From: Actinomycetes bacterium
GTDB taxonomy: Bacteria; Actinomycetota; Thermoleophilia; UBA2241
Direction of reading: 5' to 3'
Length of the DNA stretch: 57,453 nucleotides
Assembly (NCBI GenBank): GCA_029547745.1
Contig: JAKPOQ010000064.1
Location: 1-57,453 of the forward strand
Below the pieces are notes generated by a model. The model worked only from the letters and a program-made list of their open reading frames with translations, did no database searches and had not been told where the DNA came from. The translations under genes were made by a program, and so were the position numbers. The stretch's first letter is position 1. Each line of letters opens with the position of its first letter. Positions 25,294 to 43,983 of this stretch are shown piece by piece.

Positions 25294-25417
25294 GCGGCCT
25301 CCGGCCCGCGAGTGCGGGCCCCGTGTCGGCGGGCGTCCGTGCCCGCGTCCGACCGGGGACTCGAAGTCCGCGGACACGGTACGATACTCATCGGCACGAG
25401 CGGCGAGCGAGGTGGAC

Positions 25418-26776
25418 ATGACCAGTGACGCTGACCATTCAATGGGGACGGCGGGACCGCTGAAGATCCTGACCGGCGATGATCTCGGAGAGCTGGACGC
25501 CGCGGCGCTCGCGGTGCTGGCCGAGACCGGCGTGTCGATCCCTTCGGAGCGCGCGCGCGCCGGCCTGGCCGCCCGCGGGGCGGCCGTCGACGGCGCGCGT
25601 GTCCGCCTGCGGCCGGAGCTCGTGCGCGAGCTCGTCGCCCTCGCGCCGCCGCGGCTCACGCTCGGCGCCCGTGCCGCTGCGCCCCTCGTGACGGGTGAAC
25701 GCTCGTTGATCACCACGGACGGGTGCTGCGTCGAGATCTACGACATCGCCGGTGGCGAGAAACGGGGGACGAGGGCAGAGGACGTCGCCGACATCGCCCG
25801 GGTCGTCGACGCGATGCCCGAGATCGACTTCTGCTGGCCGGCCGTCAGCGCCCAGGACCGCCCGTCCGAGGTCCGTGGCCTGCACGAGTTGTACCTGGCC
25901 ATCGCCAACACGGGCAAGCACGTGCAGACGGTCACCGTGGTCGAGCCCGCACAGGCGAGGGTCGCCGTCGCCATGGCGCGCGCCCTCTGCGACGGCGACG
26001 ACGTTCGCCTGCGCGCGGAGCCGCCCATCTCGGCGCTGCTCGGGACGGTGACGCCGCTGGGCAACGACGCCGCGACGCTCGAGGCGGGCCTCGAGTTCGC
26101 CACCGCCGGCATCCCGGTCGGTTTCGTGACCATGCCCATGGGCGGCTCGACGACGCCGATCACGATGGCCGGCTCCCTCGTCGTCGCCATCGCCGAGGCG
26201 CTCTGCGCGGTCGCCGTCGTCCAGGCCGCCTGCCCCGGGGCTCCCGTCTTCATCTGCTTCATCCCCAGCGTGATGGACCTCAAGACCGGCGACTTCACGG
26301 GCGGCGCCCCGGAAGACACCGTGATGGGCGCCGCCGTCGCCGACGTCGGCCGCTTCTACGGGCTGCCGACGCAGTGCGGAGTCAACTCGTCCGGGGCGAA
26401 GGCACCGTCATGGCAGTCGGCCCTCGACGACACGACGACGACCCTTCTCTCGCTGGCCGCCGGTGTCGACATGCTTGCCGGCGTCGGCATGGTGTTCGGC
26501 GGCCGCATCTTCTCGTACACCGAGATGGCCGTGGCTGCGGAGACGGTCACGCGCGCGCGGCGACTTGCGGCGGGCCTCGATCTGGCGGCGCTGGGCGGGC
26601 CGCCGGCCCGCCCAGCGCCGCCAGCGGGCCCGCCGCTGACCGATCTCGCGCGCTCGCCGGATGCTGTCCTCGAGGCGGCGCACGACCGCGTGGCGGCAAT
26701 CTTGGCGACGCATCGCGCGGCGCCGCTGCCGCCGGCGGTCGACGACGAGCTGCGGCGGCTGGCGTCGGTGGCCTGA
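25418..26776 (+). CDS. MttB-superfamily methyltransferase-like protein, C-terminally reduced
   Basis: 452 residues from ATG 25418 (GAGG just upstream; a GTG at 25412 is possible). The barrel follows the MttB pattern (LAVLAETGVSIPSERARAGL, TTDGCCVEIYDIAGG, IDFCWPAVSAQDRP, GKHVQTVT, MPMGGSTTPITMAGSLV). The pyrrolysine position has sense codons (CGVNSSGAK). The usual C-terminal block with DDE-x-LA and VGxGGxFL, present in the other complete paralogues here, is missing. A Pro/Ala-rich segment follows the YTEMAVAAETV helix instead. Such homologues demethylate quaternary amines to a corrinoid protein in other bacteria. Activity of this shortened form is doubtful. Confidence 0.85.
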   Translation: MTSDADHSMGTAGPLKILTGDDLGELDAAALAVLAETGVSIPSERARAGLAARGAAVDGARVRLRPELVRELVALAPPRLTLGARAAAPLVTGERSLITTDGCCVEIYDIAGGEKRGTRAEDVADIARVVDAMPEIDFCWPAVSAQDRPSEVRGLHELYLAIANTGKHVQTVTVVEPAQARVAVAMARALCDGDDVRLRAEPPISALLGTVTPLGNDAATLEAGLEFATAGIPVGFVTMPMGGSTTPITMAGSLVVAIAEALCAVAVVQAACPGAPVFICFIPSVMDLKTGDFTGGAPEDTVMGAAVADVGRFYGLPTQCGVNSSGAKAPSWQSALDDTTTTLLSLAAGVDMLAGVGMVFGGRIFSYTEMAVAAETVTRARRLAAGLDLAALGGPPARPAPPAGPPLTDLARSPDAVLEAAHDRVAAILATHRAAPLPPAVDDELRRLASVA

Positions 26777-26937: not shown

Positions 26938-27028
26938 TCCTGTCGGCGGATACGGCCGCGGCGACACGCGGCCGATGAAGCCGGCGGTCTCAGGAGAGCA
27001 GGGGAACTCGAAAGGGGACGGTGATCAC

Positions 27029-27970
27029 GTGACGAAGCGGAAGAGTCTCCCGGCAATGCTGCTCGTGCCTACGGTGCTGCTTGCCCTGGCCTTCGGGCTG
27101 GTGGCATGCGGCGGCGACGAGGGCGACGAAGGCGGGACGGCGGAGGGACAGACTGCGGCCGAGAAGGCGGCGAGCATCCTCGGGCACGAGCCCGCAGGGC
27201 TGGCCAAGATCATCGTCGATCGCGGCTATCTCGTCGTCGCGAACGACCCCAACTATGCGCCGCAGAGCTCGATCAACAAGGAGACGGGCGAACTCGAGGG
27301 CTTCGACGTCGACGTGGCGAAGCTGGTGGGCGAGGCGCTGGGCCTGGAGATCAGGTTCGAGAACCCGAAGTGGGACTCGGTCATCCCGGGGTTGCAGGCG
27401 GGCGCCGAGACGGGCAGCAAGTGGAACGTCTCCATCGGATCGATGACGGTCACGCCGGATCGGGCGAAAGCTGTGGACTTCACCGACCCGTACTACTACG
27501 CCCAGGGTCAGATGCTCGTGCGACAGGGGTCGCCCAAGATCACGACCATCGAGGAGCTCAAGGGCAAGACGATCGGTGTTGGCGCGCAGACCACGTATCA
27601 GTACTTCCTCGATGCCGTAGGTGGAGTCAACATCCGCTCGTACGACACCGACCTGGACGCCTTCCCGGTGCTCGAGAACGGCGGCCTCGACGGGGTCATG
27701 ACTGCCGACCTGACGGCGAGCGAGGCGATCTCATCGGGCAAGCCCTTCGAACTGTCCGGCAAACCCTTCTACTACGAGCCTCTCGCGTTCGCGATCGCCA
27801 AGGACCAGCCAGACCTGCTCGCGCTGCTCAACTATTCGATCAAGTGGATGCGCGACAACGGCAAGCTCACTGAGGCCTCGAAGAAGTGGTACCACGGCTT
27901 CGACGTGACCGCTGAGCCGGCCTCCGGCGTGCCGTCCTACGACGAGGTGATGGCGCAGCTCCAGAGCTGA
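27029..27970 (+). CDS. Polar amino acid ABC transporter substrate-binding lipoprotein
   Basis: 313 residues from GTG 27029 (AAAGGGG about 11 bases upstream). Signal peptide with lipobox LVACGG, an acidic Gly-rich linker, then a family 3 binding domain: GYLVVANDPNYAPQS, EGFDVDVAKLVGEALGLEIRF, IGSMTVTPDRAKAVDFTDPYYYAQGQ and KTIGVGAQTT. These segments form the amino-acid carboxylate/amine site in relatives. It feeds the permease and ATPase downstream. Its position beside MttB-family genes makes an N-methylated amino acid a reasonable but unproven ligand. Confidence 0.93.
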   Translation: MTKRKSLPAMLLVPTVLLALAFGLVACGGDEGDEGGTAEGQTAAEKAASILGHEPAGLAKIIVDRGYLVVANDPNYAPQSSINKETGELEGFDVDVAKLVGEALGLEIRFENPKWDSVIPGLQAGAETGSKWNVSIGSMTVTPDRAKAVDFTDPYYYAQGQMLVRQGSPKITTIEELKGKTIGVGAQTTYQYFLDAVGGVNIRSYDTDLDAFPVLENGGLDGVMTADLTASEAISSGKPFELSGKPFYYEPLAFAIAKDQPDLLALLNYSIKWMRDNGKLTEASKKWYHGFDVTAEPASGVPSYDEVMAQLQS

Positions 27971-27993
27971 GCCGCACCGTTCCGTGGGCTTAT

Positions 27994-28032
27994 GCGCGGG
28001 GACGCCGCCCCGTCGGGGCGGCGTCCCCGCGC
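27994..28032 (+). terminator. Perfect 18-bp stem-loop between binding protein and permease
   Basis: Arms 27994-28011 and 28015-28032 pair without mismatch around the loop GTC, with no U-tract. Its place between the binding protein and the permease suits partial termination or 3'-end protection that yields more binding protein than membrane components. Confidence 0.7.
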
Positions 28033-28055
28033 CCGAACCGAGAGGCAGCGATCGG

Positions 28056-29222
28056 ATGAAGAAGCTCGTCCTCACGATCCTTGCGCTCGTCCTCGTCCTC
28101 GGGGCGATGGCGCCGGCCGCGTCCGCCGCCGGCAAGCTGCCGGAGGTGACGCAAGGGTCTCCGTATGACGGCATGGCCTACGAGTGGGGCGTCACGGCCG
28201 TGCAGGTCTACTACATGCCTGGGTCGTCGCCCGTCGACCCGCTCAAGTGCGAGCTCTACGTCAACGGCGAGCGCGTGACGCCCCTCGGCGATCCCGTCGA
28301 CAGTCAGCTCGCCCAGGGCGCTTCCCTGCAGTTCAACCTTCCCGAGGACTTCCAGCCGCCGAAGGGCGAGCTCGAGTTCCGGGCGGTGCTCGTCACCAAG
28401 GCCGGCGACGAGGTGTCCTACGACTGGACCTACACCTACGGCGGTCAGAAGCGGAAGCCGCTCATCGACTTCGCACTCATGCGTGACTGGTTCACGTTCA
28501 TCGCCCAGGGAGCCCTCGTCACCATCGAGCTGACCGTCCTGTCGATCCTCTTTGCGACGCTACTGGCGCTTCTCGGCGCCCTCGGGCGGCTGTCGAAGAG
28601 CACGAGCGCCCGCGAGGCGTGGACGAAGTACCGGAGCTGGACGTACATGGTCGGCTGGGTCGGGCGCATGGTCCCGTACGGCATCGCGACCTTCTACACG
28701 TCGCTGTTCCGGGGGACGCCCCTGCTGTTGCAGATCATCTTCATCTACCTGGCGATCCCGGGCTTCAACAACTACGCGTACGGCGCCTGGGGCTTCAAGA
28801 TCCCCGAGCCGGGGCCTTTCGCGTCCGCAGCCGTGGCCCTGTCTCTCAACTACGGCGCCTACCTGACCGAGGTGTGGCGGGCCGGCATCCAGGCGGTCCC
28901 AAAGGGGCAGACCGAGGCGGCCTGGGCGTTGGGCATGACGGGCATGCAGACCTGGCGACGCATCACCTTGCCGCAGGCCTTCAAGATCGTCATCCCGGCG
29001 ATCGGCAACGACTTCATCGCCCTCATCAAGGACACCTCACTGGCCTCGACGATCGCGTTGCCGGAGCTTCTGCAAAAGGCGCGGCTCGTGGGCGGACGGA
29101 CGTACGACTTCCTTTCGCCCCTCCTCGTCGCCGCCGCCGTGTACTGGGCCCTGACGATCTTCTTCAGCTTCTGGCAAGCGAGACTCGAGCGCCGGCTCGA
29201 GCGCGACACGGCGAGGGGGTAG
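28056..29222 (+). CDS. Amino acid ABC transporter permease with N-terminal exported domain
   Basis: 388 residues from ATG 28056. The first 26 residues look like a cleavable signal peptide (MKKLVLTILALVLVLGAMAP, then AASAAG). Residues 27-145 form a soluble, probably extracytoplasmic beta-rich domain (YEWGVTAVQVYYMPGS, YDWTYTYGGQ). From residue 150 on it is a normal HisM/GlnP-type permease: first helix QGALVTIELTVLSI, FRGTPLLLQIIFIYL, and the EAA loop TEAAWALGMTGMQTWRRITLPQ. Most family members lack the exported domain. It ends with TAG, one base before the ATPase ATG. Confidence 0.88.
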   Translation: MKKLVLTILALVLVLGAMAPAASAAGKLPEVTQGSPYDGMAYEWGVTAVQVYYMPGSSPVDPLKCELYVNGERVTPLGDPVDSQLAQGASLQFNLPEDFQPPKGELEFRAVLVTKAGDEVSYDWTYTYGGQKRKPLIDFALMRDWFTFIAQGALVTIELTVLSILFATLLALLGALGRLSKSTSAREAWTKYRSWTYMVGWVGRMVPYGIATFYTSLFRGTPLLLQIIFIYLAIPGFNNYAYGAWGFKIPEPGPFASAAVALSLNYGAYLTEVWRAGIQAVPKGQTEAAWALGMTGMQTWRRITLPQAFKIVIPAIGNDFIALIKDTSLASTIALPELLQKARLVGGRTYDFLSPLLVAAAVYWALTIFFSFWQARLERRLERDTARG

Positions 29223-30137
29223 ATGATGGCGACGGAGCCCAGAGAGACCGGGGCCGCAGACGACGTCCTCGTCCGGGTCGAGGGTCTGCACAAGTCGTTC
29301 GGCAAGCTGCATGTGCTGAAGGGCGTCGACTTCGCGGTACGCCGCGGCGAGGTCGTCGTGGTCATCGGTCCGTCGGGCTCGGGCAAGAGCACGTTGCTCC
29401 GCTGCCTCAACTTTCTCGAGGAGCCGCAGAAGGGCGTCATCACCATCGGCGGCGTCTCGGTGACGTGCGGCGGCAGGGGCAAGGCGCACAAGAGGGCCGT
29501 CCGTGACGTGCGCCTCAAATGCGGCATGGTCTTCCAGGAGTTCAACCTCTTTCCGCACAAGTCCGTGACCGAGAACGTCATCGAGGCGCCGATGCTGGTG
29601 AAGGGCTTGAGCAAGGAAGCGGCCACCGAGAGGGCGTTCGCCTTGCTCGCCAAGGTGGGCCTGAGCGACCGCGCCGACTACTTCCCGTCGCAGATCTCGG
29701 GCGGGCAGAAACAACGGGTGGCGATCGCCCGCGCCCTCGCCATGGACCCCGAGCTCATGCTCTTCGACGAGCCCACGAGCGCGCTCGACCCTGAGCTCAT
29801 CGGCGAGGTCCTCGGCGTGATGAAGGACCTCGCCCAAGAGGGCATGACCATGATCGTGGTCAGTCACGAGATGGGCTTCGCCCGCGACGTCGCCGACCGG
29901 GTCATCTTCATGGACGGCGGCTACTTCGTCGAGCAGGGGCCGCCGTCCGAGGTCTTCTTCCATCCGCGTGAGGACCGCACGCGGCAGTTCCTGCGCCACA
30001 TCCTGCCCGAGCAGGAGCCCGAGCACGCGGCCGAGCTGGGCATCACGGGCGAGGCCGAAGAGGGGGCGTCGGAGGAGGAAGCGCAGGGAGAGGAGGCGGC
30101 GGAGGAGGCGCCGGCAGGCGGCTCGCCGGGCGCGTGA
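29223..30137 (+). CDS. Polar amino acid ABC transporter ATPase
   Basis: 304 residues (ATG 29223 or 29226). Walker [11 protein letters not shown]-loop [11 protein letters not shown] (typical of GlnQ/HisP), signature ISGGQKQR, Walker [15 protein letters not shown] and H-loop [10 protein letters not shown] Glu/Ala-rich tail of about 40 residues after residue 260 is additional. It energises the preceding permease. The gene abuts the permease stop and is the last of the operon. Confidence 0.95.
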
Positions 30138-30215: not shown

Positions 30216-31706
30216 TTAGAGGTACCGGACCGGCGGCGCGGCGACGCCCTTCTCGCGGTCGGCCGCCTCTACGATGGCGCGGATCTGCTTCGCCGCGTCC
30301 CTGTCGAGCGGCTCCGGCTTGTGGTCCTCGATGATCTCCAGCGCCGCCTTCCTGGCGCGCTCGTAGAGGTCGCTCGCTCCCCGCTCCTTCCAGTCCTCGC
30401 GCACGCGGCGGTCGAGGTACCGTGGCTGGCTCTGGTCGCGCATGTGTCGCAGGGTGGCATCCAGGCTGAGGAAGTCGCCGAAGGGGCCGACCGCGGCGAT
30501 GTCCTCCACCGCCAGGGCCTCATCGTCCACGCGGAACCCCTGCACCACCTGCAGGATCATGCCCGCGATCTCGTCGTCGATCACGAGCTGCGCGCAGTCG
30601 AAGGTGACTCCCGACTCGATCATCCCCGCGCCGTAGATCTGGTTGGCCCCTGCCAACGCAGCCGTCAGGCCGGTGAGCGTCTTCTCGTGACCAGTCTGGG
30701 CGTCACCGAGCTTGGAGTCTGTCTACAACCCGGCCACGAAGCTCGGGATGAGGTAGCGGCGGGCCATCTGGGCGGTGGCGGCGCTGAGGAGGGCGAGCTC
30801 CGGCGAGCCGACCGAGGCGGCCGCCAGCCGCAGGTCCATGGCCGTCGTCGACGAGCCGTAGTCGATCGGCGCCCCGCGTGTCGTGAGCTGCGAGAGGGTG
30901 ATGCCGGCGAGCACCTCGGCGTTGTGCTGCACGAAGGTCCCAGCGAGCGTCACCGGCGACGAGCCGCCGGACATCGCCATCGAGAGACAGCCACAGGGCA
31001 GGCCGCGGCGGGCGCACGCGACGATCACCTCGGTGGCGTCGCGCGGCAGCTTCAGCGGGCTGACGGGGCAGACGCCGAAGCCCACGATCGGGTTGTCGCG
31101 CAGAGCGTCCTCGTCGCCGACGACGCAGGTCGCCATCTCCACGACCTTGCGCACCTCCCAGGCCGATGTCGCTTCGGTGCCGACGACCTTGGTCGTGTTG
31201 TGCAGCGCCGCCTCGGTGCCGTGCAACACGGCGGTCTCCTGGGGGCAGTCCGTCGGGCTGCCGGCCGGCTCGTACATGTCGATCGAGTCCAGCGTGTCGA
31301 TCAGACGGACGATCTCGGCGACGTCCTGCAGCACCGGGGGGCGATGTTCGCCCGTGCGCAGGTCGTTGACCATGATGCCCTCGTCGAAGTTGCAGAACGA
31401 AACGCGTCCAGGCTCGAGAACGATGCGCTTCTGCGGGTCGCGCGCCCCGCGCACCATCTTCGCCGGGACCGAGCGGATGGCGTCCTCGACGACGAACGGC
31501 GGGATCCGGACCATGCGCGTTTCGCGGTCGACGCGGCAGCCGCCGTCGCTGAAGATGTCGAGGGCCTCGTCGTCCTCCACCCAAACGCCGGTCCGTTCGA
31601 GCACCTCGAGGGTGGCGAGATGGATGTCGTCCATCTCCGCTTCGGTGAAGACGTTGAGGCTGAGGCCGCCGCTGCGTGGGTTGCCGGCGTGCGGGTTCCG
31701 TTTCAT
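30216..31706 (-). CDS. mttB: Trimethylamine methyltransferase MttB, pyrrolysine (UAG) containing
   Basis: 496 codons from ATG 31706 (AGGAGG, 7-base spacing) to TAA at 30218-30216, interrupted only by TAG at 30725-30723, codon 328. Coding homology continues without a gap: RYLIPSFVAGL, UAG, TDSKLGDAQTGHEKTL, then VDDEALAVEDIAAVGPFGDFL. Archaeal MttB is 495 residues with pyrrolysine at 334, so both length and position fit. The sense-codon paralogue at 31998 aligns here with LPSFSYAGH-SDSK, His replacing pyrrolysine. MttB moves a methyl group from trimethylamine to a corrinoid protein. The alternative is a nonsense mutation, since pyl genes and the MttC partner are not in the window. Divergent from the next methyltransferase gene. 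Confidence 0.85.
30723..30725 (-). other. In-frame UAG, predicted pyrrolysine codon
   Basis: The only in-frame stop inside a 496-codon MttB frame. It is immediately followed by the conserved TDSK-x-x-D-x-Q element. Decoding would require tRNA(Pyl) and PylS encoded elsewhere. Confidence 0.8.
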
Positions 31707-31774: not shown

Positions 31775-31997
31775 CGCGAAGTTCGCCCAGGTATCCGCGC
31801 CGGGGCGCGGGGCAGGAGGCTACGACTCGGCCGACTCCGCCCAGCGAGGGGCTGACTGGTGTCCGACCGGGTTCGAAGGATGGCGCCGGACCGGGTCCTC
31901 TGGGAGGCGGTTGGCGTTGGGCCCGGCCCGTCGGCGAGAATGGGGCACGTTTCCGATGCGTGCCCGCCGGGCCGCGGTCGACTGGGGAGGTGGCAAC

Positions 31998-33410
31998 GTG
32001 AACGACGCCCGTCTGGTGATCTGGGAGGACGACGCCTGCAAACGCGTGCATGAGGCGACGTGCGAGGTGCTCGCCGAGACGGGCGTCGAGGTGCGCTACG
32101 CGCCGGCGCTCGAGATCTTCGCCGGCGCCGGCGCGCAGGTCGACGGGACGCGGGTGCGGATCCCGGCGGAGCTTGTCGAGGCGGCGATCGAGAACGCGCC
32201 GCGCGGCTGGGTGCTCAAGCCGCGCGGCGGCGAGACGGCGCCGCTCGTCCTCGACGCGCAGCACACGTACTGCGGCACGGGGTCCGACGTCCTCTACATC
32301 TGCGACCCCGACACGCGCGAGCGCCGACGGGTGCGCAAGGCCGACGTCGAAGGCCAGGCGGCGCTCTGCGAGAAGCTTCCCAACATCGACTTCGTGATGA
32401 GCATGGGCCTGCCCGAGGACGTCCCCCAGGCGGTCGATGACCTTGCCCAGGTGGACGCCATGCTGCGCGGGACGCGCAAGCCGCTCCTCGTGGCGCCGCG
32501 CGACGGGCACATCCTCGGCCACATGAAGGAGATGTGCGCCGTCGCCGGGGCGGCCGACAGCTTCGGCATCTACGCGATGCCGGTGCCGCCGCTCATGCTG
32601 GACGAGGACGGGGCCAGCAAGGTGATCGCCTGCGCTGAGCTCGACGTCCCGCTCATCTGGGCGCCGGCGCCCGCCGCGGGTACGACGGCGCCGGCGAGCA
32701 TCGCGGCGACGATCGTCGTCGCCAACGCCGAGACGCTCGCCGGCCTCGTCCTGAACCAGGCGGTCAAGGCCGGCGCCCCCTTCGTCTGGGGCGTGGGCGT
32801 CGGGGCCATGAACATGAAGACGATGAACGAGGTCTATGCGTCCGCCGGCCCGATCCAGGGCTACCAGGCGCAGGCCGACCTCGCCCGCTGGTACGACCTG
32901 CCGAGCTTCAGCTACGCCGGCCACAGCGACAGCAAGACGCTCGACCAGCAGTGGGCGGCCGAGGCGGCTATCACGACGATCACCGCCATGCTCTCACGCG
33001 CCACCTTGCTGCACGACGTCGGCTATCTCGAGGCCGGCCTGCAGAGCAGCTACGAGTCGATCCTCTTCGGCGACGAGCTCGTCGGCTACGCCAAGGCGTT
33101 CATGAGCGAGCTCTCCGTGGACGACGAGGCCTTGGCGTTGGACGAGATCAAGGCGGTGGGTCCCGGCGGGAGTCACCTGGGCCGGCCGTACACGCGCAAG
33201 CACTACCGCGAGATCTGGCAGAGCGACCTCTTCGACACGATGCGTCACGACCACTGGGTGGAGCAGGGTTCGGCGACGCTGCTCGACCGGCTGCGGGCGC
33301 GGGTGGCGGCGCTGCGCGCCGAGCCCCGCGCCTTCGAGCTCGACGCCTCCGTCACGGGCGAGCTCGACCGCATCCTCGCCGAGGTGGAGGCGCACCGGCC
33401 GGGGAGCTGA
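31998..33410 (+). CDS. MttB-superfamily methyltransferase, non-pyrrolysine
   Basis: 470 residues with a GTG start and GGAGG 7 bases upstream. It resembles MtgB-like quaternary-amine methyltransferases: VLAETGVEVRYAPALEIF, TYCGTGSDVLYICDP, KLPNIDFVMSMGLPEDV, LPSFSYAGHSDSKTLD and VDDEALALDEIKAVGPGG. Residue 309, the site of pyrrolysine in true MttB, is His. Such proteins transfer a methyl group from glycine betaine, carnitine, proline betaine or gamma-butyrobetaine to a corrinoid protein. The substrate of this one is unknown. The truncated gene at 56868 is its closest relative in the window. Confidence 0.9.
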   Translation: MNDARLVIWEDDACKRVHEATCEVLAETGVEVRYAPALEIFAGAGAQVDGTRVRIPAELVEAAIENAPRGWVLKPRGGETAPLVLDAQHTYCGTGSDVLYICDPDTRERRRVRKADVEGQAALCEKLPNIDFVMSMGLPEDVPQAVDDLAQVDAMLRGTRKPLLVAPRDGHILGHMKEMCAVAGAADSFGIYAMPVPPLMLDEDGASKVIACAELDVPLIWAPAPAAGTTAPASIAATIVVANAETLAGLVLNQAVKAGAPFVWGVGVGAMNMKTMNEVYASAGPIQGYQAQADLARWYDLPSFSYAGHSDSKTLDQQWAAEAAITTITAMLSRATLLHDVGYLEAGLQSSYESILFGDELVGYAKAFMSELSVDDEALALDEIKAVGPGGSHLGRPYTRKHYREIWQSDLFDTMRHDHWVEQGSATLLDRLRARVAALRAEPRAFELDASVTGELDRILAEVEAHRPGS

Positions 33411-34895: not shown

Positions 34896-34919
34896 ATGAG
34901 CGAGGCGCATCCCGCATGA
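34896..34919 (+). CDS. Seven-codon upstream reading frame coupled to the next gene
   Basis: ATG at 34896 follows GAGGAGGAG with 9-base spacing and encodes MSEAHPA. Its TGA overlaps the ATG of the MttB-like gene (ATGA at 34916-34919). The downstream gene has no good ribosome-binding site of its own, so reinitiation from this short frame may set its expression. It could also simply be an untranslated leader. Confidence 0.4.
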   Translation: MSEAHPA

Positions 34920-36376
34920 CGGAGATACAGACCTCCAGCGCCGCCGATCGCCGCGCCCGCCTGTCGTTGCGGCTGCTCGCGGCCGAAGACGCCCGGCGCG
35001 TCTACGCGGCGGCCCTCGAGCGGCTCGCCGGCCCCGGCATCGTGCCGGGCGGCGAGGAGGCGCGAGCCGCGCTGCTCGCCGCAGGGGCGACGCCCGTCGC
35101 CGGCTCGCCGGCGGCGGGCGTCGCCCCTGCGCTCGCGTTGCGCCCGGATCTCGTCGAAGCCGCGGCTGCGCAGGCGCCGAAGCAGGTCGTCCTCGGTGGC
35201 CGTGACGCGGACGGTGACGTCGTCCTGACGCCGGGAGCCGCCCTGCTGGGCGCCGGCGGCCGGCCGGCGCCGCTGGTCGAGCCGGTCGCCGGCGGACCGC
35301 CGCGCGACGTTGTCCTGGACGACGTCGGCGAGGCCTGTCGGCTGGCCGACGCGCTGCCCGACGTCGCGGTCGTCGTCGGGCCGCCCGTCTCCCCGCCCGG
35401 CGACGAAGGGACTCAAGTCCTCGCCCTGGACGCAGCCGTCCGTGCCACGAGCAAGCACGTGCAAGTTGCCGGCGTCGCGTCGCCCCGAGTCGCCGCCACA
35501 GCGGCGCAGATGGCGGCGGCGTTGCGCGGCGACGCCTCCGCGGTCCGTCGCCGGCCGCCGCTTTCGCTCGTCGGCGGCGCGACATCGTTCGCCGCCGCCG
35601 CGGTGTTCGCGGGCGCCGGCCTGCCGGTGGGCGCACTCGTCGCGGCGCCGGAGGCGTCTGGCGCCGTCGTCGGGCCCGCGACATCGCCGGCCGCGCTCAC
35701 CGAGGCGGTCGTGTCCTTCGTCGCCGACGTGCTGGCGGCGAATGCGGCCGTCCAGGCGCTGGCGCCGGGAGCTGCGTTTGTCGCTCCGGTCTGGCCCGCG
35801 GCGGCGGGCCTTCCGGCCGCCGGCCCCGACGCGACGACCTTCATCGTCGCCGTGACCCAGGTCCTGACCGACGCCGGGTTGCCCGTCGCGGCGCACGTCT
35901 TCGCCACGTCCGCCGGTGAGCCTGACTGGCTCGCCTGCACGGACGGCGCGTTCGCGGCGCTCAGCGCCGCGGCCGCCGGCGTCGCCCTCCTGACCGGCGC
36001 CGGCACGCTGCGCGGCGGCGAGGTCTTCTCGCCACGCGAGCTCGTCGCCGACGCCGAGATCCATTCCTGGTGCACCGCGGTCGCCGCCGGTATCCCCGTG
36101 GACGACGAGACACTCGCCGTCGAGGCCATCAAGGACGTCGGCATCGGCGGCAACTTCCTCGGTCAGAAGCACACCCGGCGTCACATGAAGGACGTGTGGC
36201 GGCCGCGTCTCCTTGACCGGTCACCGTGGGACGCGTGGGTGGCCGAGGGCCGCCTGAGCGCAGCCGACAGGGCGGCTGAGCTCGCCCTGACCTTGCTGGC
36301 GCAGCATGAGGTCGCGCCGATCGACGAGGAACGCGCCGCCACCCTCGAACGCATCATCGCGAGCGCTGGTCTGTAA
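34916..36376 (+). CDS. MttB-superfamily protein, divergent and Ala-rich
   Basis: 486 residues. The C-terminal 130 residues keep the family pattern (LRGGEVFSPRELVADAEIH, VDDETLAVEAIKDVGIGGNFLGQ, HTRRHMKDVWRPRLLDR). The barrel is rich in Ala, Val and Pro and has lost many usual motifs; the pyrrolysine-site region reads ATSAGEPDWLAC. The catalytic cleft may be altered, so it may be a non-catalytic partner or act on a different substrate. It is divergent from the racemase and precedes the aminomutase. Confidence 0.8.
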   Translation: MTEIQTSSAADRRARLSLRLLAAEDARRVYAAALERLAGPGIVPGGEEARAALLAAGATPVAGSPAAGVAPALALRPDLVEAAAAQAPKQVVLGGRDADGDVVLTPGAALLGAGGRPAPLVEPVAGGPPRDVVLDDVGEACRLADALPDVAVVVGPPVSPPGDEGTQVLALDAAVRATSKHVQVAGVASPRVAATAAQMAAALRGDASAVRRRPPLSLVGGATSFAAAAVFAGAGLPVGALVAAPEASGAVVGPATSPAALTEAVVSFVADVLAANAAVQALAPGAAFVAPVWPAAAGLPAAGPDATTFIVAVTQVLTDAGLPVAAHVFATSAGEPDWLACTDGAFAALSAAAAGVALLTGAGTLRGGEVFSPRELVADAEIHSWCTAVAAGIPVDDETLAVEAIKDVGIGGNFLGQKHTRRHMKDVWRPRLLDRSPWDAWVAEGRLSAADRAAELALTLLAQHEVAPIDEERAATLERIIASAGL

Positions 36377-36491: not shown

Positions 36492-37790
36492 ATGGCGCGA
36501 CATTACAGCGAGATACCGCTCTTCAAAGACGTCACCGACGAGCAGTGGAACGACTGGCGCTGGCAGGTTCGCCATCGTCTCACGAAGATCGAGGAGTTCG
36601 AACAAGTCCTCAATCTGACCGAGACGCAGAAGGCCGACCTCGAGCAGTGCATGGGCAAGTTCCGTGTCGCCGTGACCCCTTACTACTCTTCGCTCATGGA
36701 CCCGGACGACCCGTCCTGTCCGGTCCGTATGCAGGGGGTCCCGACCCCGGCGGAGCTCGTCGTCGGCGCGGCCGACATGAAGGACGCGCTCACTGAGACG
36801 ATCGACGCCCCGACCACGCTCATCACGCACCGCTACCCGGACCGCGTACTGTTCATCACCACCGAGATGTGCTCGATGTACTGCCGGCACTGCACCCGGC
36901 GTCGCATCGTCGGCGAGCACGAGGGGGCAGTGTCGGACCAGGACTACGAGAACGCCTTCACCTACATCCGCCGCAACCCCGAGGTGCGCGACGTCCTGCT
37001 CAGCGGCGGCGACCCGCTCACCCTGTCGGACGAGCGCCTCGAGTGGCTGCTGCAGAAGGTCACGGAGATCCCGCACGTCGAGATCGTGCGCCTTGGGTCG
37101 CGCATGCCGGTGGTCTGCCCGCAGCGCATCACGCCCGCGCTCTGTGAGATGCTGCACAAGTACCATCCGCTGTACCTGAACACGCACTTCAACCATCCCA
37201 AGGAGATCACGCCCGAGTCGACCCGCGCCTGCGCGATGCTCGCCGACGCCGGCATCCCGCTCGGCAACCAGACCGTGTTGCTGCGCGGCGTCAACGACTG
37301 CGCCAGGGTCATGAAACGCCTCGTCCACGGCCTCGTGAAGATCCGCGTCAAGCCCTACTACTACTACCAGTGCGACCTGGCGGAGGGCATCAGCCACTTC
37401 CGCACCTCGGTCGCCAAGGGCATCGAGATCTACGAGAGTCTGCGCGGGCACACCACCGGCTTCGCGGTGCCGACGTACATCATCGACGCCGTCGGCGGCG
37501 GCGGGAAGACGCCCGTCTTCCCGAACTACGTCATCTCCCAGACCGACCACCAGGTCATCCTGCGCAACTACGAGGGGATCATCAGCAAGTACACCGAGCC
37601 GGACGACTACAAGTTCGAGTGCCACTGCGCGGACTGCGAGGCCGAGCGCCAGCGTCTCGGTGTCGCACACATGTTCGACAGCTCGGAACCGACGCTCGGA
37701 GATGTGTGGGCGGCGCGGTGGAAGAAGGTCGAGGACCGCAAGGCCCTGATGGCCGACATCCATACCGAGCCGTTCCGCGTCGCGCACTGA
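36492..37790 (+). CDS. kamA: Lysine 2,3-aminomutase (radical SAM, PLP)
   Basis: 432 residues, AAGGAG about 10 bases before the ATG. Radical-SAM cysteines are C127, C131 and C134 (CSMYCRHC). LLSGGDPL follows. D295 in QCDLAEG, D332 and PLP lysine K339 in DAVGGGGKTP correspond, with a constant offset of two, to C125/C129/C132, D293, D330 and K337 of the clostridial enzyme. Both aspartates that grip the side-chain ammonium are kept, which argues for lysine (or a lysine-like cation) rather than glutamate as substrate. It makes beta-lysine from L-lysine. No kamDE or kdd genes lie nearby, so the classical fermentation route is not present here. Confidence 0.9.
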   Translation: MARHYSEIPLFKDVTDEQWNDWRWQVRHRLTKIEEFEQVLNLTETQKADLEQCMGKFRVAVTPYYSSLMDPDDPSCPVRMQGVPTPAELVVGAADMKDALTETIDAPTTLITHRYPDRVLFITTEMCSMYCRHCTRRRIVGEHEGAVSDQDYENAFTYIRRNPEVRDVLLSGGDPLTLSDERLEWLLQKVTEIPHVEIVRLGSRMPVVCPQRITPALCEMLHKYHPLYLNTHFNHPKEITPESTRACAMLADAGIPLGNQTVLLRGVNDCARVMKRLVHGLVKIRVKPYYYYQCDLAEGISHFRTSVAKGIEIYESLRGHTTGFAVPTYIIDAVGGGGKTPVFPNYVISQTDHQVILRNYEGIISKYTEPDDYKFECHCADCEAERQRLGVAHMFDSSEPTLGDVWAARWKKVEDRKALMADIHTEPFRVAH

Positions 37791-37804
37791 CGAAACCCTG
37801 ACCA

Positions 37805-37836
37805 GCGGCGGGGCCACCGTCCGGCGGCCCCGCCGC
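37805..37836 (+). terminator. GC hairpin between the aminomutase and corrinoid activator genes
   Basis: GCGGCGGGGCC (37805-37815) and its exact complement (37826-37836), 10-base loop. The following bases contain further GC-rich self-complementarity up to the next gene. Confidence 0.5.
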
Positions 37837-37883
37837 GCGGGCGGCGGGGCCCCGCCCGCCCACGCGGGTGCGAGGAGGCGCGG

Positions 37884-39671
37884 ATGACGCAGGTCTTCGT
37901 CGAGCCCATCGGGGTGACCGTCGAGGTCCCCGAGAGCGAAACGCTCATGGACGCGCTGGCACGCGTCGGCATAGACGTGCCCAACGTCTGCGCCGGGCGT
38001 GGCACCTGCGGCAAATGCCTGATACGGCTCGGGGCCGGCGAGCTCACGCCGCCGACCGAGGTCGAGCTGCGCAAGGTCCCCGAGAAGCTGCGCGACGCCG
38101 GCTGGCGCCTGGCGTGCCAGGCGCGGCCGGCGTCGTCGCGGGTCAGCGTCGAGGTCCGCGAGACGAGCGGTCGGCGGCGCATCTTGACGACGAGCCGACT
38201 GCACCACGGCCGGCCGCACCCGGCCGTCACACGCGTCACTGCCGCCCTCGACCCGCCGGCTCTGGGTGACGCGCGCAGCGACCTCGAGCGCGTGCAGGCG
38301 GTCCTGCACGGCGTCGAGGTCCCGTACCAGGCTCTTCTTGAGATTCCCGACGTGCTGCGCGAGAACGGGTGGCGGGCGACGTTCACGCGCTACGGGCGGC
38401 GCCTGATCGACGTCGAGACGCCGGAGGCGGCCGGCGTCGCGTACGGCGCCGCCGTCGACATCGGCACCTCGAAGATCATCGCCTACCTCTTCGACCTCGT
38501 GCGCGGGGAGCAGATCGACGCGGAGGCGGTCGAGAATCCGCAGATGCGCTACGGAGAGGACGTCGTCAGCCGCATCGCCAGGGCGACGCCGGAGGCCCGT
38601 CCGGAGCTCGCCGCAGCGGCGCGCGCCGGCATCAACCAGTGCCTCGGCGTGCTGTACGCGCGCCAGGGCATCGCTCCGCGGCATCTCTACGACGTGACCG
38701 TCGTCGGGAACACCGCGATGCACCATCTCGCCCTGGGCCTGCCGGCGCAGGGTCTCGGCGCTGCGCCCTACGCCCCGGCCGCGGCCGAGGCCGTCACGGT
38801 GCGCGGCGCCGACCTCGGCCTCGACATGAACCCGGAGGGCGGCGTCCACTTCCCGCCTCCGATCGCCGGCTTCGTCGGTTCAGACGCCCTCGCCGTGATC
38901 GCGGCGACGCGGCTCGCGAGCAAGCGTCGCCCGTCGCTCGCCATCGACATCGGGACCAACACCGAGATCGCCCTCGTGCACGACGGCCGCGTGACGGTCA
39001 CGAGTTGCGCCTCAGGGCCGGCCTTCGAGGGCTACCAGATCACGCACGGCATGAAGGCCGTCGCCGGAGCGATCGAGAAGGTGCGCATCGACCACGAAGG
39101 CCGGCCGGCCCACCTCGCGACCATCGGTGGTGGGCAGCCCATCGGCATCTGTGGCTCGGGGGTCGTGGACCTGCTCGCCGGCCTCGTCCGCAGCGGCGTG
39201 GTCGATCCGAGCGGGCGCATGGTCTCCCATCCGCTCGTGCGCAAGGGCGAGAACGGGTCCTCCGAATACGTCCTCACCTCCGGTCCCGTCGGCGAGATCG
39301 TGTTCACGCAGCACGACGTCAGGAACCTGCAGCTCGCCAAGGGGGCCATCGCCACCGGTTGGTCACTGCTGCTCCAGAGCCTGGGCATCGGCGTCGACGA
39401 CCTGTGCCGCGTCTACGTGGCCGGCGCGTTCGGCAACTACCTCGACCTCGCCAACGCCCAGGCCATCGACCTGCTGCCGCCGGTGCCCAGGGAACGCGTC
39501 GTGTTCGTGGGGAACGCCGCCGGAGTCGGGGCCCAGATGGCGCTCATCGATGTGCGCGCGCGCCGGCGCATGGCGCGGCTGCGCGCGCGCATCACGTTCC
39601 TCGAGCTGGCCGGGAACAGCGACTTCCAGGACGCGTTCGCGGCGCGTTTGGGGTTCCGCGACGTTGGCTGA
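37884..39671 (+). CDS. Corrinoid protein reductive activator (DUF4445/ASKHA) with N-terminal 2Fe-2S domain
   Basis: 595 residues. The N-terminal ferredoxin domain has C36, C42, C45 and C78 (CAGRGTCGKC and LACQ). Residues of about 190-595 are the ASKHA-type ATPase domain of the RACE/COG3894 family: AVDIGTSKIIAYLFD, VVGNTAMHHL, SLAIDIGTNTEIAL and GICGSGVVDLLAGL. Members use ATP to drive reduction of an inactivated Co(II) corrinoid protein to Co(I). Methanogen RamA instead carries C-terminal 4Fe-4S clusters, so this is the bacterial type. It should serve the corrinoid partners of the MttB-family enzymes, which are not in the window. Confidence 0.92.
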   Translation: MTQVFVEPIGVTVEVPESETLMDALARVGIDVPNVCAGRGTCGKCLIRLGAGELTPPTEVELRKVPEKLRDAGWRLACQARPASSRVSVEVRETSGRRRILTTSRLHHGRPHPAVTRVTAALDPPALGDARSDLERVQAVLHGVEVPYQALLEIPDVLRENGWRATFTRYGRRLIDVETPEAAGVAYGAAVDIGTSKIIAYLFDLVRGEQIDAEAVENPQMRYGEDVVSRIARATPEARPELAAAARAGINQCLGVLYARQGIAPRHLYDVTVVGNTAMHHLALGLPAQGLGAAPYAPAAAEAVTVRGADLGLDMNPEGGVHFPPPIAGFVGSDALAVIAATRLASKRRPSLAIDIGTNTEIALVHDGRVTVTSCASGPAFEGYQITHGMKAVAGAIEKVRIDHEGRPAHLATIGGGQPIGICGSGVVDLLAGLVRSGVVDPSGRMVSHPLVRKGENGSSEYVLTSGPVGEIVFTQHDVRNLQLAKGAIATGWSLLLQSLGIGVDDLCRVYVAGAFGNYLDLANAQAIDLLPPVPRERVVFVGNAAGVGAQMALIDVRARRRMARLRARITFLELAGNSDFQDAFAARLGFRDVG

Positions 39672-40551
39672 CGCCCGCGTCCGCGGCTACGGCGAGATCT
39701 TCGCCGCGGCGCTCGTCAACGGGTCCATCGGGACCATCGTGAGCTACACGACCATGCCGGTGGCGATGCTCGTGTCGCTGCGCATGTGCTTCGCCGCCGG
39801 CGCGCTCGCCCTGGTGCTGGGCCTGCGGGGCCGCTGGCCGCGGCCGAGCGACCGGCGCACCGTCCTGCGGCTGTTCGTCCTCGGCCTCGTGCTCGCCGCC
39901 AACCTGACGTGCTACTTCGTCGCCATCCGCGAGACGGGCGTGGCGATCGCCATCTTCACGTCGTACCTCGCCCCGGTGTACGTCGCCGTCGTGGCCCCAC
40001 GCCTCTCCGGTGAGCGGACCGGACCGGTGGTCGTCGCGGCGCTGGCCGTCGCCCTGGCCGGCATGCTGCTCATCCTGGCGCCGTCGCTGAACGGCGCCGG
40101 CCTGGACCCCGGCGGCCTTGCCGCCGGGGTCGCCGCCGGCGCCTTCTACGCCGCCTATCTCCTCCTGAGCAAGAGCCTTCGTCGCTCGGGCATGGAAAGC
40201 GCCGGCATCGTCTTCGTCATCGCCGCGATCACCGCCGTTGTGCTCTTGCCCTCGGGTCTCGCGCAGGCGACGGCGAGCGACTTCACCGCGCTCAACGTCG
40301 CCATGGCGGCGCTGCTCGGCGTCGCGACCACGGCGCTCACCTTCAGTCTGTTCATCGACGGGCTGCATTTCGTGAAGGTGCAGCACGCCTCGATCATCGG
40401 CTACATCGAGCCTGTGAGCGCGCCGCTCTACGCCCTGTTCCTCCTCGGCCAGCGGCCCTCCGCGTGGACGGTCGCCGGCGGCGTCCTCATCGTCGTCGCC
40501 GGCTTCGTCGTCGTGGCTCTCGGCAAGGCCGAGGAGGAGGTCTACGGATGA
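39664..40551 (+). CDS. EamA-family transporter (operon copy 1)
   Basis: About 295 residues with a TTG start at 39664 inside the end of the activator gene. Ten predicted helices in two EamA repeats (FVAIRETGVAIAIFTSYLAPVY in the first, HASIIGYIEPVSAPLYALFLLGQ in the second). Coupled to the next two EamA genes by overlapping stop/start codons. Tight linkage to the corrinoid activator suggests export or uptake of a product or substrate of the methyl-amine pathway. Confidence 0.88.
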   Translation: MADARVRGYGEIFAAALVNGSIGTIVSYTTMPVAMLVSLRMCFAAGALALVLGLRGRWPRPSDRRTVLRLFVLGLVLAANLTCYFVAIRETGVAIAIFTSYLAPVYVAVVAPRLSGERTGPVVVAALAVALAGMLLILAPSLNGAGLDPGGLAAGVAAGAFYAAYLLLSKSLRRSGMESAGIVFVIAAITAVVLLPSGLAQATASDFTALNVAMAALLGVATTALTFSLFIDGLHFVKVQHASIIGYIEPVSAPLYALFLLGQRPSAWTVAGGVLIVVAGFVVVALGKAEEEVYG

Positions 40552-41489
40552 GTGCGCCGACGAAGGGACAGGCGCGGCCGCGCGACGTCATGGAGGGCTA
40601 CGCCCTGGTCGCCGTGAGCTTCCTCATCTGGGGACTCATCGGCGCCCTGGTGCGCTGGGTGACCATGCCGGAGAGCGCTCTGAACGTGCTCCGCATGGTG
40701 ATCGGCGCGGCGCTGGTCGGCGCGCTGTTCGCGCGACGCGCGACGTTCGCCGAAGTCCGCCGCCGCGACGTCTGGCCGAACCTGCTGCTGATGGGCGCCT
40801 TCAGCGCCAGCACGATCCTGCTGTTCTTCGTCGCCATGCGCCTGACGGACGTCGCGGTGGGCATGTTCCTGCTGTTCACGAGCCCGGTCTACGTCGCCCT
40901 CCTTGCGCCGCGGTTCATGCGCCAGCCGGTGGACCGTGTCGTTTATCCCGCGCTCGCCATCGCCGTCGCCGGGATGCTCGTCATCCTCCTCCCCGGGTTG
41001 CTCGGCGTCGGCGGTCTCTCGCTTCTCGGTGTCGCCTGCGGGGCTGCGACCGGCTTCCTGTACGCCTGCTACGCCCTGGTCACGAAGCGCCTGACCGGTC
41101 GCGCGCGGAGCACGACGATCGCCTTGGCCGAGATGGTGATCGACGCGGTGCTCCTGTTGCCTCTGGGGGCGTGGCAGGTGTTCGGTACGGGGTACGACAT
41201 CACACGCAACGACGTCGTGGCCGCCGTCGTGCTTGGCGTCGTCTGCACGGCGCTGCCCTACGTCCTCTACGTCGAGGGCCTGCGCCGCGTGCGCGTCGAG
41301 CACGCCTCGATCATCGGCTACCTTGAGCCGGTGAGCGCGCCGTTCTACGCCTACCTCCTGCTCGGCGAGGCGCCGGCGCCCACCACCGTGCTCGGCGCGG
41401 TGCTCATCACCGTCGCCGGCGTGCTCGTCATCGTGTACGGCCAGCGGGAGACGCCGGTCGGACCCGATGCCGGAGACGCCGGATCGTGA
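40548..41489 (+). CDS. EamA-family transporter (operon copy 2)
   Basis: 313 residues, ATG overlapping the previous stop (ATGA). Paralogue of both neighbours, with FVAMRLTDVAVGMFLLFTSPVY and HASIIGYLEPVSAPFYAYLLLGE. Probably cytoplasmic-membrane exporter. Substrate unknown. Confidence 0.9.
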   Translation: MSAPTKGQARPRDVMEGYALVAVSFLIWGLIGALVRWVTMPESALNVLRMVIGAALVGALFARRATFAEVRRRDVWPNLLLMGAFSASTILLFFVAMRLTDVAVGMFLLFTSPVYVALLAPRFMRQPVDRVVYPALAIAVAGMLVILLPGLLGVGGLSLLGVACGAATGFLYACYALVTKRLTGRARSTTIALAEMVIDAVLLLPLGAWQVFGTGYDITRNDVVAAVVLGVVCTALPYVLYVEGLRRVRVEHASIIGYLEPVSAPFYAYLLLGEAPAPTTVLGAVLITVAGVLVIVYGQRETPVGPDAGDAGS

Positions 41490-42409
41490 AGAGGCGCCCG
41501 ATCGTGACAAGTCGATCGGCGTCAGGCTACGCGCTCGTCGCCGGGTCGTTCGCGATCATGGGGCTGATCGGCACGCTGGTGGAGTGGGCCACGGCGCCGG
41601 AGAGCGCGCTGCTCGTGATGCGCTTCGTGGTCGCCGGCGCGGCCCTGAGCGCGGTGTTCGCGCGCCGGCAGCCTTTGGCCGGCGCGCGCGACCGCGCCGT
41701 CTGGCCGCGCCTCCTCCTGATGGGGGCGATCGACGCCGTGTCGCTGCTCCTGTTCTTCGTCGCGATCCGCGAGAACGGCGTCGCCATCGGGATGTTCCTC
41801 CAGTTCCTCGCTCCGGTGTGGGTCGCGGTCATCGCCCCCTGCGTTCTCCACTCGCGCACCGACCGCATCGTCTTTCCGGCGCTCGCCGTCGCCCTCGCGG
41901 GTCTCGCCGTGATTCTGGCGCCGTCGCTCGTCGGCGACGGCGCCGACCTGTCCCGGTGGGGTGTCGTCGCCGGCCTGCTCGCCGGGCTCGCGTACGCCGG
42001 CTTCCAGCTCACGGTGAAGGACCTGACCGCCCGGGTGTCGAGCGTCGGGATCGTCGTCGCCGAGGCGTGGCTGGACGCGGCGTTCCTGCTCCCCCTGGCG
42101 CTCGCACAGACGGTCGGCGCCGGCTACAGACTGACGCGTACGGACCTCACCTCCGCCCTCATCCTCGGCCTCGTCTGCACGGCGCTCGGGTACACGATGT
42201 GGACGGAGGGGACGGCACGGATCCGCGTGCAGCACTCCGCCATCTTGGGCTACCTCGAGCCGGTGACCGCGCCGGTCTACGCGCTGCTCCTGCTCGGGCA
42301 GACGATGTCGGGCTGGACGGTGGCCGGCGGCGCCCTCATCGTCCTCGCCGGCGTGCTGATCCTGGTCTGGGGCGAACGGGAGGAGCCGGTCGCCGAGCCC
42401 CCGACGTGA
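41486..42409 (+). CDS. EamA-family transporter (operon copy 3)
   Basis: 307 residues with a GTG start overlapping the previous stop (GTGA). Same architecture: FVAIRENGVAIGMFLQFLAPVW and HSAILGYLEPVTAPVYALLLLGQ. Three consecutive, overlapping EamA genes are unusual and may provide hetero-oligomers or a set of related substrates. Its stop codon is inside a large hairpin. Confidence 0.9.
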   Translation: MKRRPIVTSRSASGYALVAGSFAIMGLIGTLVEWATAPESALLVMRFVVAGAALSAVFARRQPLAGARDRAVWPRLLLMGAIDAVSLLLFFVAIRENGVAIGMFLQFLAPVWVAVIAPCVLHSRTDRIVFPALAVALAGLAVILAPSLVGDGADLSRWGVVAGLLAGLAYAGFQLTVKDLTARVSSVGIVVAEAWLDAAFLLPLALAQTVGAGYRLTRTDLTSALILGLVCTALGYTMWTEGTARIRVQHSAILGYLEPVTAPVYALLLLGQTMSGWTVAGGALIVLAGVLILVWGEREEPVAEPPT

Positions 42410-42456
42410 TCCCGGGGCGCGGCGCGCCATCTTGGCGCGCCGCGCCCCGGGATCAC
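42406..42456 (+). terminator. Perfect 23-bp stem-loop over the stop codon of the EamA operon
   Basis: Arms 42406-42428 and 42434-42456 are exact complements around ATCTT. The left arm contains the TGA stop. There is no U-tract, but the length makes termination very likely. Confidence 0.75.
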
Positions 42457-42494
42457 CAAGCGGGCGACGGCGCCGGGGTGACCGTTCGCCGCCG

Positions 42495-42544
42495 TTCCGA
42501 TACCCTTGACGTAGAGGCCTTCCGATACCCTTGACGCAGAGGCG
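42495..42544 (+). repeat. 25-bp tandem repeat carrying CCCTTGACG in front of the aminotransferase gene
   Basis: TTCCGATACCCTTGACG followed by TAGAGGCC or CAGAGGCG, two adjacent copies (42495-42519, 42520-42544). Each copy includes TTGACG, a good -35 hexamer, about 110-130 bases before the aminotransferase start. It could be a duplicated promoter or an activator site. No convincing -10 follows at 17 bases. Confidence 0.6.
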
Positions 42545-42653
42545 ACATGACCTGCGTGCGCGTCTCATCTCCGGCCTTACCCGACCGGCCTGTCGCCGGG
42601 TCTCTCGCTCGTGCCGCTCACTCCGCGCTGAGGCGCTGAAAGGAGCCCACAAG

Positions 42654-43922
42654 ATGAAGAAGCGCGTCGAGAGCGCACCCAAGCTCAACCTCACGAAGTC
42701 CATGGCGATGCTCGAGGAAGCCCAGCGCCTCACGCCTGGCGGCGTCGGCGGCATCCGCCGGCCGTACAACTTCGTCATCGGTGAGTACCCCGTCTTCATC
42801 GAGCGCGGCGAAGGCGGCCACATCATCGACGTCGACGGCAACGAGTACATCGACATGCTCTGCGCCTACGGGCCGATCATCCTCGGCTACGTCGAGCCCG
42901 AGATCAATGAGGCCGTCAAGAAGCGGATGGACCTGGGCTTCTGCTTCAGCCTCGTGCAGCCCGTCCAGAACGAGCTCGAGGAACGGCTCGCGCAGATCCT
43001 GCCCTGCGGCGAACAGACGATCATCGTGAAGACGGGCAGTGACGCTACGAACGCGGCCGTGCGGGCGATGCGCGCCTACACGGGGCGTGACGTCATCGCC
43101 CGTTGCGGCTACCACGGCTGGGGCGACTGGTGCGTCGAGAACCACGGCGGCGTCCCGCAGGCCGTCGTCGAGCTCACCAAGGAGTTCGAGTACGGCGACG
43201 TGGCCGACCTCGAGCGCGTCTTCGCCGAGAACCCGGGCAAGGTCGGCGGGGTCATCCTCACCCCGGTCGGTCACCCGACGGCCAAGGCCGTCGTCCCGCC
43301 GCCGGACGGCTACCTGCAAGCGGTGATCGACCTCTGCCACAAGAACGACACCCCCATCTGCTTCGACGAGATCCGCACCGGCTTCCGGGTCGCCATGGGC
43401 GGCGCCCAGCAGCGCTACGGCGCCACCCCCGACCTGACGACGGTCGGCAAGGCGATGGCCAACGGCTACCCGATCGCCGCCGTGGTGGGCAAGGCCGACA
43501 TCCTCGGCGTGTACGTCAAGGACGCCTTCCTGAGCTCCACCTTCTTCTCGAACAGTCTCGAGATGGTCGCCGCCATGAAGTGCATGGACATCCTCGAGCG
43601 TGAGAAGGTCCAGGATGTGATCTGGGAGCGGGGGACACGCTTCCTCGACCGCCTCGGCAAGATCGTCGCGGCCTCCGGCGTCCCGGTCACGATGAGCGGT
43701 ATCCCGCCGATGCCCTTCCTCACGTTCGACCACGCGGACGATCACTACCGGGAGCGTCGCACCGAGTTCTACACGCAGTGCATCCGCCGCGGGCTCTTCG
43801 TGCAGCCGTACCATCACTGGTACATCGCCTACCGGCACACTGGGGAAGACCTCACGCGGGCGCTCGACGTCGTGGAAGAGAGCCTCGCCTACGTGGCGCA
43901 GGAGTACCCGTACAGCGCATGA
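42654..43922 (+). CDS. Class III aminotransferase, GSA-aminomutase-like
   Basis: 422 residues, AAAGGAG 8-9 bases before the ATG. Fold-type I PLP enzyme: TPGGVGGIRRPY at the N-terminus, VKTGSDATNAAVRAMRAYTGR, YHGWGDW, PLP-binding aspartate D238 in CFDEIRTGFR and PLP lysine K266 in TVGKAMANGYP. These are shared with glutamate-1-semialdehyde aminomutase and with beta-amino-acid transaminases. As no heme genes are nearby and it precedes a beta-keto-acid cleavage enzyme, a role in turning a beta-amino acid such as beta-lysine into the 3-oxo acid is plausible. It is inferred from context only. Confidence 0.88.
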   Translation: MKKRVESAPKLNLTKSMAMLEEAQRLTPGGVGGIRRPYNFVIGEYPVFIERGEGGHIIDVDGNEYIDMLCAYGPIILGYVEPEINEAVKKRMDLGFCFSLVQPVQNELEERLAQILPCGEQTIIVKTGSDATNAAVRAMRAYTGRDVIARCGYHGWGDWCVENHGGVPQAVVELTKEFEYGDVADLERVFAENPGKVGGVILTPVGHPTAKAVVPPPDGYLQAVIDLCHKNDTPICFDEIRTGFRVAMGGAQQRYGATPDLTTVGKAMANGYPIAAVVGKADILGVYVKDAFLSSTFFSNSLEMVAAMKCMDILEREKVQDVIWERGTRFLDRLGKIVAASGVPVTMSGIPPMPFLTFDHADDHYRERRTEFYTQCIRRGLFVQPYHHWYIAYRHTGEDLTRALDVVEESLAYVAQEYPYSA

Positions 43923-43926
43923 CCAA

Positions 43927-43962
43927 GGGGCGAGGGGGCGGGGTGACCCGCCCCCTCGCCCC
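43927..43962 (+). terminator. Perfect 16-bp stem-loop between aminotransferase and cleavage enzyme
   Basis: Arms 43927-43942 and 43947-43962 (G-rich and exact complement), loop GTGA. It lies 5 bases after the aminotransferase stop and 21 before the next start, so it probably tunes rather than ends expression. Confidence 0.65.
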
Positions 43963-43983
43963 CGTCCCGACCAGGGGGAGGAG

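Follow-up and report, generated by a model that had tools for sequence, protein, structure and literature searches.

A putative pyrrolysine-type mttB gene with a candidate recoding signal in Thermoleophilia that also use UAG as a stop codon

The mttB locus

The window (the whole 57,453-nucleotide stretch analysed) is contig C94 of a metagenome-assembled genome of 2.27 Mb in 203 contigs, 95.8% complete. It contains a gene of the MttB family on its minus strand (Table 1). The initial annotation had given no strand for this gene, and a plus-strand reading of the interval was rejected. The same annotation had proposed a single frame broken once at codon 328, and this description stands: a TAG is the sole internal stop in the frame, and the Pfam MTTB family (PF06253) matches through it without a shift (model positions 27–494 of 500). 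The separate fragments that it expected from ordinary annotation are also seen; standard ORF calling cuts the gene, and the 3′ portion is listed as a 146-aa ORF with a TTG start (30216–30656).

Table 1. Positions of mttB, its associated sequence elements and neighbouring genes within the window
Feature	Position	Strand	Evidence and remarks
mttB, pyrrolysine-type (putative)	30216..31706	-	ATG at 31706, TAA ending at 30216; 496 codons + stop; O328; PF06253 330.3 bits across the UAG
In-frame UAG, codon 328	30725-30723	-	Aligned with Pyl334 of 7XCL; preceding codon TTG (Leu)
Conserved hairpin GUUGGC-AGGG-GCCAAC	30642..30657	-	nt 69–84 from the U of UAG; codon bias, pair counts
Rfam RF02510 PYLIS_3 match	30626..30725	-	72.6 bits; gathering threshold 38
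Non-Pyl MttB paralogue, divergent	31983..33410	+	PF06253 250 bits, no internal stop; His at the Pyl position
Non-Pyl MttB-family protein	25412..26776	+	PF06253 204 bits
Non-Pyl MttB-family protein	34916..36376	+	PF06253 147–150 bits
Amino-acid-type ABC transporter	26975..30137	+	Binding protein 26975–27970, permease 27984–29222, ATPase 29223–30137
AcsV/RamA-like reductive activase of corrinoid proteins	37884..39671	+	NF040756 380 bits, TIGR04270 128 bits, both below cut-off

Codon 328 was aligned with known MttB, as the initial annotation had suggested. In a phmmer search of the PDB, the best match was Methanosarcina barkeri MttB (7XCM/7XCL; full-length homology, 379 bits), and residue 328 fell exactly on its modified residue 334, described as pyrrolysine in PMC9842639. 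Met249 and Tyr364 of the archaeal enzyme are both kept in the window copy, including therefore the active-site tyrosine looked for in pyrrolysine-type MttB. Gly110-Thr111, however, is replaced by Asp-Glu, with Asp108 at the glycine position. Gly110 works via its main-chain carbonyl and is reported to be fully conserved in a published alignment (PMC9842639). Since the position is Ser or Gly in the other copies of this genome, and Ser also in Desulfobacula Pyl-MttB, Gly110 was not taken as defining for bacterial Pyl-MttB. The present system further differs from that of M. barkeri in being bacterial and in using UAG as an ordinary stop as well.

The divergent paralogue, whose start lies about 300 bases away, aligns with mttB at the UAG, as had been noted, and has LPSFSYAGHSDSK there. 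The ABC transporter is possibly an importer of methylated amines. No mttC was found in the immediate neighbourhood of the window mttB. Beside the MttB genes, a row of genes (36492–44811) encodes a lysine-2,3-aminomutase-like radical SAM protein, the corrinoid activase, an EamA-type transporter, a glutamate-semialdehyde-aminomutase-like protein and a 3-keto-5-aminohexanoate cleavage enzyme; this row suggests a lysine-derived methylated amine as a substrate in use.

Pyrrolysine genes in the genome and its relatives

The initial annotation had proposed searching the same genome for pylT, pylS, pylB, pylC, pylD and an mttC corrinoid gene. All of the pyl genes were recovered on contig C81, apart from the window contig. 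There, pylB, pylC, pylD and tRNA-Pyl(CUA) are consecutive, the tRNA gene (L020:12978-13050, minus strand) adjoining pylD; pylSn lies farther along the same strand as pylBCD, and pylSc is on the opposite strand. Scores exceed the respective cut-offs for PylB (439 bits, cut-off 348), PylC (358, 248), PylD (186, 150), PylSc (TIGR02367; 299, 178) and PylSn (TIGR03912; 121.5, 51). In bacterial split PylRS systems such as that of Desulfitobacterium hafniense, the genes form a single pylTScBCDSn operon, whereas here pylSc and pylSn are divided between the two strands with about 2.5 kb separating them, and both lie away from pylBCD-pylT. The closest relative of the PylSc is the solved D. hafniense PylSc (3DSQ, 2ZNI; 292 bits to 3DSQ), with which the PylSn/PylSc split is shared. 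Seven MttC-type corrinoid proteins match TIGR02370 (130–229 bits), two of them above cut-off.

The in-frame TAG is not confined to the window. Among 20 MttB-family matches in the genome, five have exactly one internal stop, which is TAG every time, and each of the seven mtbB (dimethylamine) genes also carries one TAG (L154-L160, L023, L024). Because they are split at the UAG, Pyl-methylamine genes are normally lost to annotation. Sense-codon paralogues without UAG occur in this genome for both MttB, as in the non-Pyl glycine betaine methyltransferase, and MtmB, as in the non-Pyl MtqB (PMC13044021). The one MtmB homologue in the genome (L161, G000:C115:15572-16933) has no TAG; it carries Ile at the Pyl202 position and adjoins an MttC-type corrinoid gene. 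Within the family, two groups of non-Pyl MtmB that resemble MtqB recur.

An actinobacterial host had been proposed, and the organism is indeed a Thermoleophilia actinobacterium whose nearest named PylC comes from MAG UBA2241. A PylC match exceeding the cut-off is present in every one of the 15 genomes sampled from its family, as well as in two genomes that belong to a different family of the class, and actinobacterial PylC sequences form one clade in a quick tree (SH-aLRT 96). A scan for tRNA-Pyl in 17 other actinobacterial contigs placed it beside pylC in 15. UAG-containing mttB is present in 15/15 sampled family genomes. Every pylC-positive genome (17/17) has at least one TAG-mttB, and in genomes without an above-cut-off pylC none of the matches listed has an internal TAG. 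These enzymes appear to be a trait of the whole Thermoleophilia family. Within a single genus, G017 has both pylC and UAG-mttB and G027 has neither, a contrast that points to a recent gain or loss.

A nonsense mutation or assembly error that left mttB a pseudogene might be entertained for a single copy from a MAG, which is all that the window holds. However, the five mttB and seven mtbB genes each carry one TAG at the homologous codon, there is no decay downstream of the UAG, and the pyl genes are present. A hand count of internal stops among the MttB matches listed for 28 genomes gave 56 TAG, 2 TGA and 0 TAA, and we regard this explanation as extremely improbable. That an ordinary suppressor tRNA decodes the UAG as something other than pyrrolysine is scarcely more credible, given a tRNA-Pyl(CUA) and a full set for pyrrolysine synthesis and charging, conserved together with the UAG genes. 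The initial annotation had named absence of pylS and pylT, or a sense codon in close relatives, as findings that would tell against pyrrolysine; pylS and pylT are both present, and in congeners this codon is still TAG. The two internal TGA codons fall one each in two MttB-family genes (G010:C25:3524-4999 and G012:C464:1786-3273).

The reading of UAG codon 328 as pyrrolysine is thus strongly supported by sequence and gene content. The locus very probably encodes a pyrrolysine-type MttB-family corrinoid methyltransferase in a member of the Thermoleophilia with a complete Pyl system, with a downstream hairpin and a UUR leucine codon before the UAG as a candidate cis signal. In such a scheme, PylB, PylC and PylD would synthesise pyrrolysine from lysine, the split PylSn and PylSc would charge tRNA-Pyl(CUA), and the ribosome would insert pyrrolysine at codon 328. 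The resulting MttB would move a methyl group from trimethylamine, its presumed substrate by homology, to an MttC-type corrinoid protein.

The initial annotation had also suggested an extension of the known range of pyrrolysine use. Use in a bacterium is supported, but novelty at the phylum level is not, because pyrrolysine has already been reported in Actinobacteriota: two actinobacterial PylRS are known (PMC11764691), and Pyl mttB and mtbB were expressed in Actinobacteriota MAGs from Stordalen Mire, according to a 2023 report (PMC10805028). Those MAGs share the phylum and enzyme types described here, and one of them, bog_752, has a related pylC with tRNA-Pyl. Pyrrolysine was deduced there from gene truncation, and the sections of that report consulted name no pyl genes, hairpin or stop-codon use. 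As far as the open-access literature shows, the family-wide spread, the common co-use of UAG as a stop and the mttB hairpin have not been described, though earlier reports may exist.

UAG as an ordinary stop codon

In 455 kb sampled from the genome, TAG terminates 66 of 329 genes predicted by a codon-usage gene caller (~20%); the caller counts every TAG as a stop, so Pyl codons enter this tally, though at most ~7 of the 66 are such codons. Some of the longest TAG-ended genes resemble uvrA, polA, lon and secD by sequence. Several Pyl genes themselves terminate in TAG (e.g., L001, L003, L157 and L158), and the mtbB genes L157 and L158 accordingly combine an internal with a terminal UAG. The share of TAG stops is 30–49% in other pylC-positive genomes.

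No prfA (RF1) scored above cut-off in this assembly, an observation that by itself would favour whole reassignment of UAG to pyrrolysine after loss of RF1. However, 12 of the 15 family genomes, that of the sister species G001 among them, have a complete or partial prfA. The flanks of the G001 gene match the extreme ends of contigs C153 and C11 of the present assembly, with the 2.3 kb between them missing; since the flanks stop at these contig ends, prfA falls in an assembly gap. Full reassignment is also contradicted by the 66 TAG-ended genes, those like uvrA, polA, lon and secD among them, and by TAG use that is equally high in pylC-positive G017 (49%) and its pylC-negative congener G027 (56%). 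On the basis of relatives, contig-end synteny and stop-codon counts, RF1 loss with full reassignment was rejected; we consider its probability negligible. Because ordinary TAG stops are common and the loss of prfA is an assembly gap, UAG has two meanings in these cells. With UAG remaining a stop elsewhere, insertion of pyrrolysine would have to compete with RF1.

Sequence context of the pyrrolysine codon

Downstream of the UAG in Pyl-mttB, at a distance of 66 nt, lies a 6-bp hairpin with the consensus GUUGGC-AGGN-GCCAAC. The six codons at +22 to +27, counted from the UAG, are typically GCG TTG GCA GGN GCC AAC across 52 Pyl-mttB genes of Thermoleophilia. The hairpin TTG is found in 48/52 and the GCA in 51/51, though these make up 5.8% of genomic leucine codons and 3.5% of genomic alanine codons, respectively. 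With codon expectations taken from one genome, the TTG/GCA columns are outliers at 4.83 and 3.52 bits from genomic codon usage (123 columns; mean 0.31, s.d. 0.59). Non-Pyl MttB paralogues lack the hairpin and have GCA in only 1/26 and TTG in 2/19 (Fisher p = 2e-19 and 9e-11 against Pyl-mttB, ignoring kinship).

Base pairing points in the same direction. At least five of the six pairs can form in 51 of the 52 Thermoleophilia genes, as compared with an average of 9.3 and a maximum of 19 when synonymous codons were resampled at genomic frequencies (2000 trials). Across 62 distinct bacterial sequences from several phyla, standard pairs fill 91.9% of pair cells versus at most 54.6% when slid, in shuffles that treat related Thermoleophilia sequences as independent. 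In three pairs both partners have changed in a compensatory manner; in L284, for example, TTG to CTG accompanies AAC to AGC. Among 16 Pyl-mttB of other phyla, six pairs form in nine, five in three and fewer in four. The pattern occurs only five times in 455 kb of the genome, once per Pyl-mttB. RNAalifold, applied to a 42-nt alignment, recovered the inner three pairs only, so that the argument for the hairpin is built on its conserved codons and on the counts of pairs. By these measures the hairpin reflects a genuine constraint on the nucleotide sequence, and one linked to Pyl-type genes.

Comparison with existing models of pyrrolysine insertion elements is mixed. The Rfam PYLIS_3 model for mttB matches downstream of the UAG but does not include the hairpin at nt 69–84. 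Its base pairs are mostly not kept here, with the central helix forming in 0, 8 and 7 of 18 sequences; the match was therefore read as sequence similarity rather than the described structure, and rejected as proof of RNA structure. A 2013 paper had found no significant structure in mttB (PMC3639795). For mtbB, the 3′ hairpin of the PYLIS_2 model, with its AGAY loop (nt 81–84), is common to the model and the genes described here; it is kept in 17 mtbB, with a rare GGA codon at the hairpin in 17/17.

A second regularity lies directly upstream of the UAG. Where leucine precedes the pyrrolysine codon, it is encoded by UUR in 23/23 Thermoleophilia Pyl-mttB, where the context is TTG-UAG, and in 15/16 mtbB. 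The codons involved before Pyl UAGs (mttB, mtbB, mtmB), UUG and UUA, are rare leucine codons in these GC-rich genomes. The broader idea that a purine generally precedes the UAG was dropped and the claim limited to the UUR-Leu context, since G also precedes 45 of the 66 predicted TAG stops. Even this is a weaker claim than the hairpin, because 6 of 11 predicted TAG stops that follow leucine also have TTG, some of them being Pyl genes cut at the UAG by the gene caller.

For a cis signal favouring insertion, we infer that the UUR codon and the hairpin are the leading candidates. The mttB hairpin may help to separate Pyl UAGs from ordinary UAG stops, presumably by promoting pyrrolysine insertion, and together with the UUR context may favour insertion over termination. 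The fuller proposal is of a PYLIS-type recoding signal in bacterial Pyl-mttB, comprising the AGGN hairpin with its AGAY counterpart in mtbB and the UUR codon, and giving selective insertion although 20–50% of genes stop at UAG; we consider its prospects evenly balanced. The hairpin lies too far away to touch a ribosome that has halted at the UAG, so any action would have to come through a bound factor, folding over a long range or altered mRNA stability.

This distance, with the UAG in the A site, and the perfect dyad of GTTGGC-N4-GCCAAC would also fit a function other than recoding, as a DNA-binding site, a translational pause or an element governing mRNA stability, an alternative that competes solely with the hairpin part of the preferred explanation. 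However, the palindrome is confined to Pyl-type genes and absent from the sense-codon paralogues, it recurs in Pyl-mttB of other phyla, and both its conserved AGGN loop and the similar mtbB hairpin with an AGAY loop are as an RNA element predicts. This alternative is a serious possibility, if one with somewhat less than even chances.

Whether a cis signal marks Pyl UAGs has been a question since PYLIS was proposed, and for the recoding signal suggested here the hairpin and UUR context make specific, mutable predictions. Many Pyl-mttB copies and sense-codon paralogues in a lineage that uses UAG stops form a natural control set for them. Milder synonymous bias was also observed around the hairpin, at Pyl-mttB codons +11, +33 and +37 (GGT, GGG and TCG), and a larger structure there is possible.
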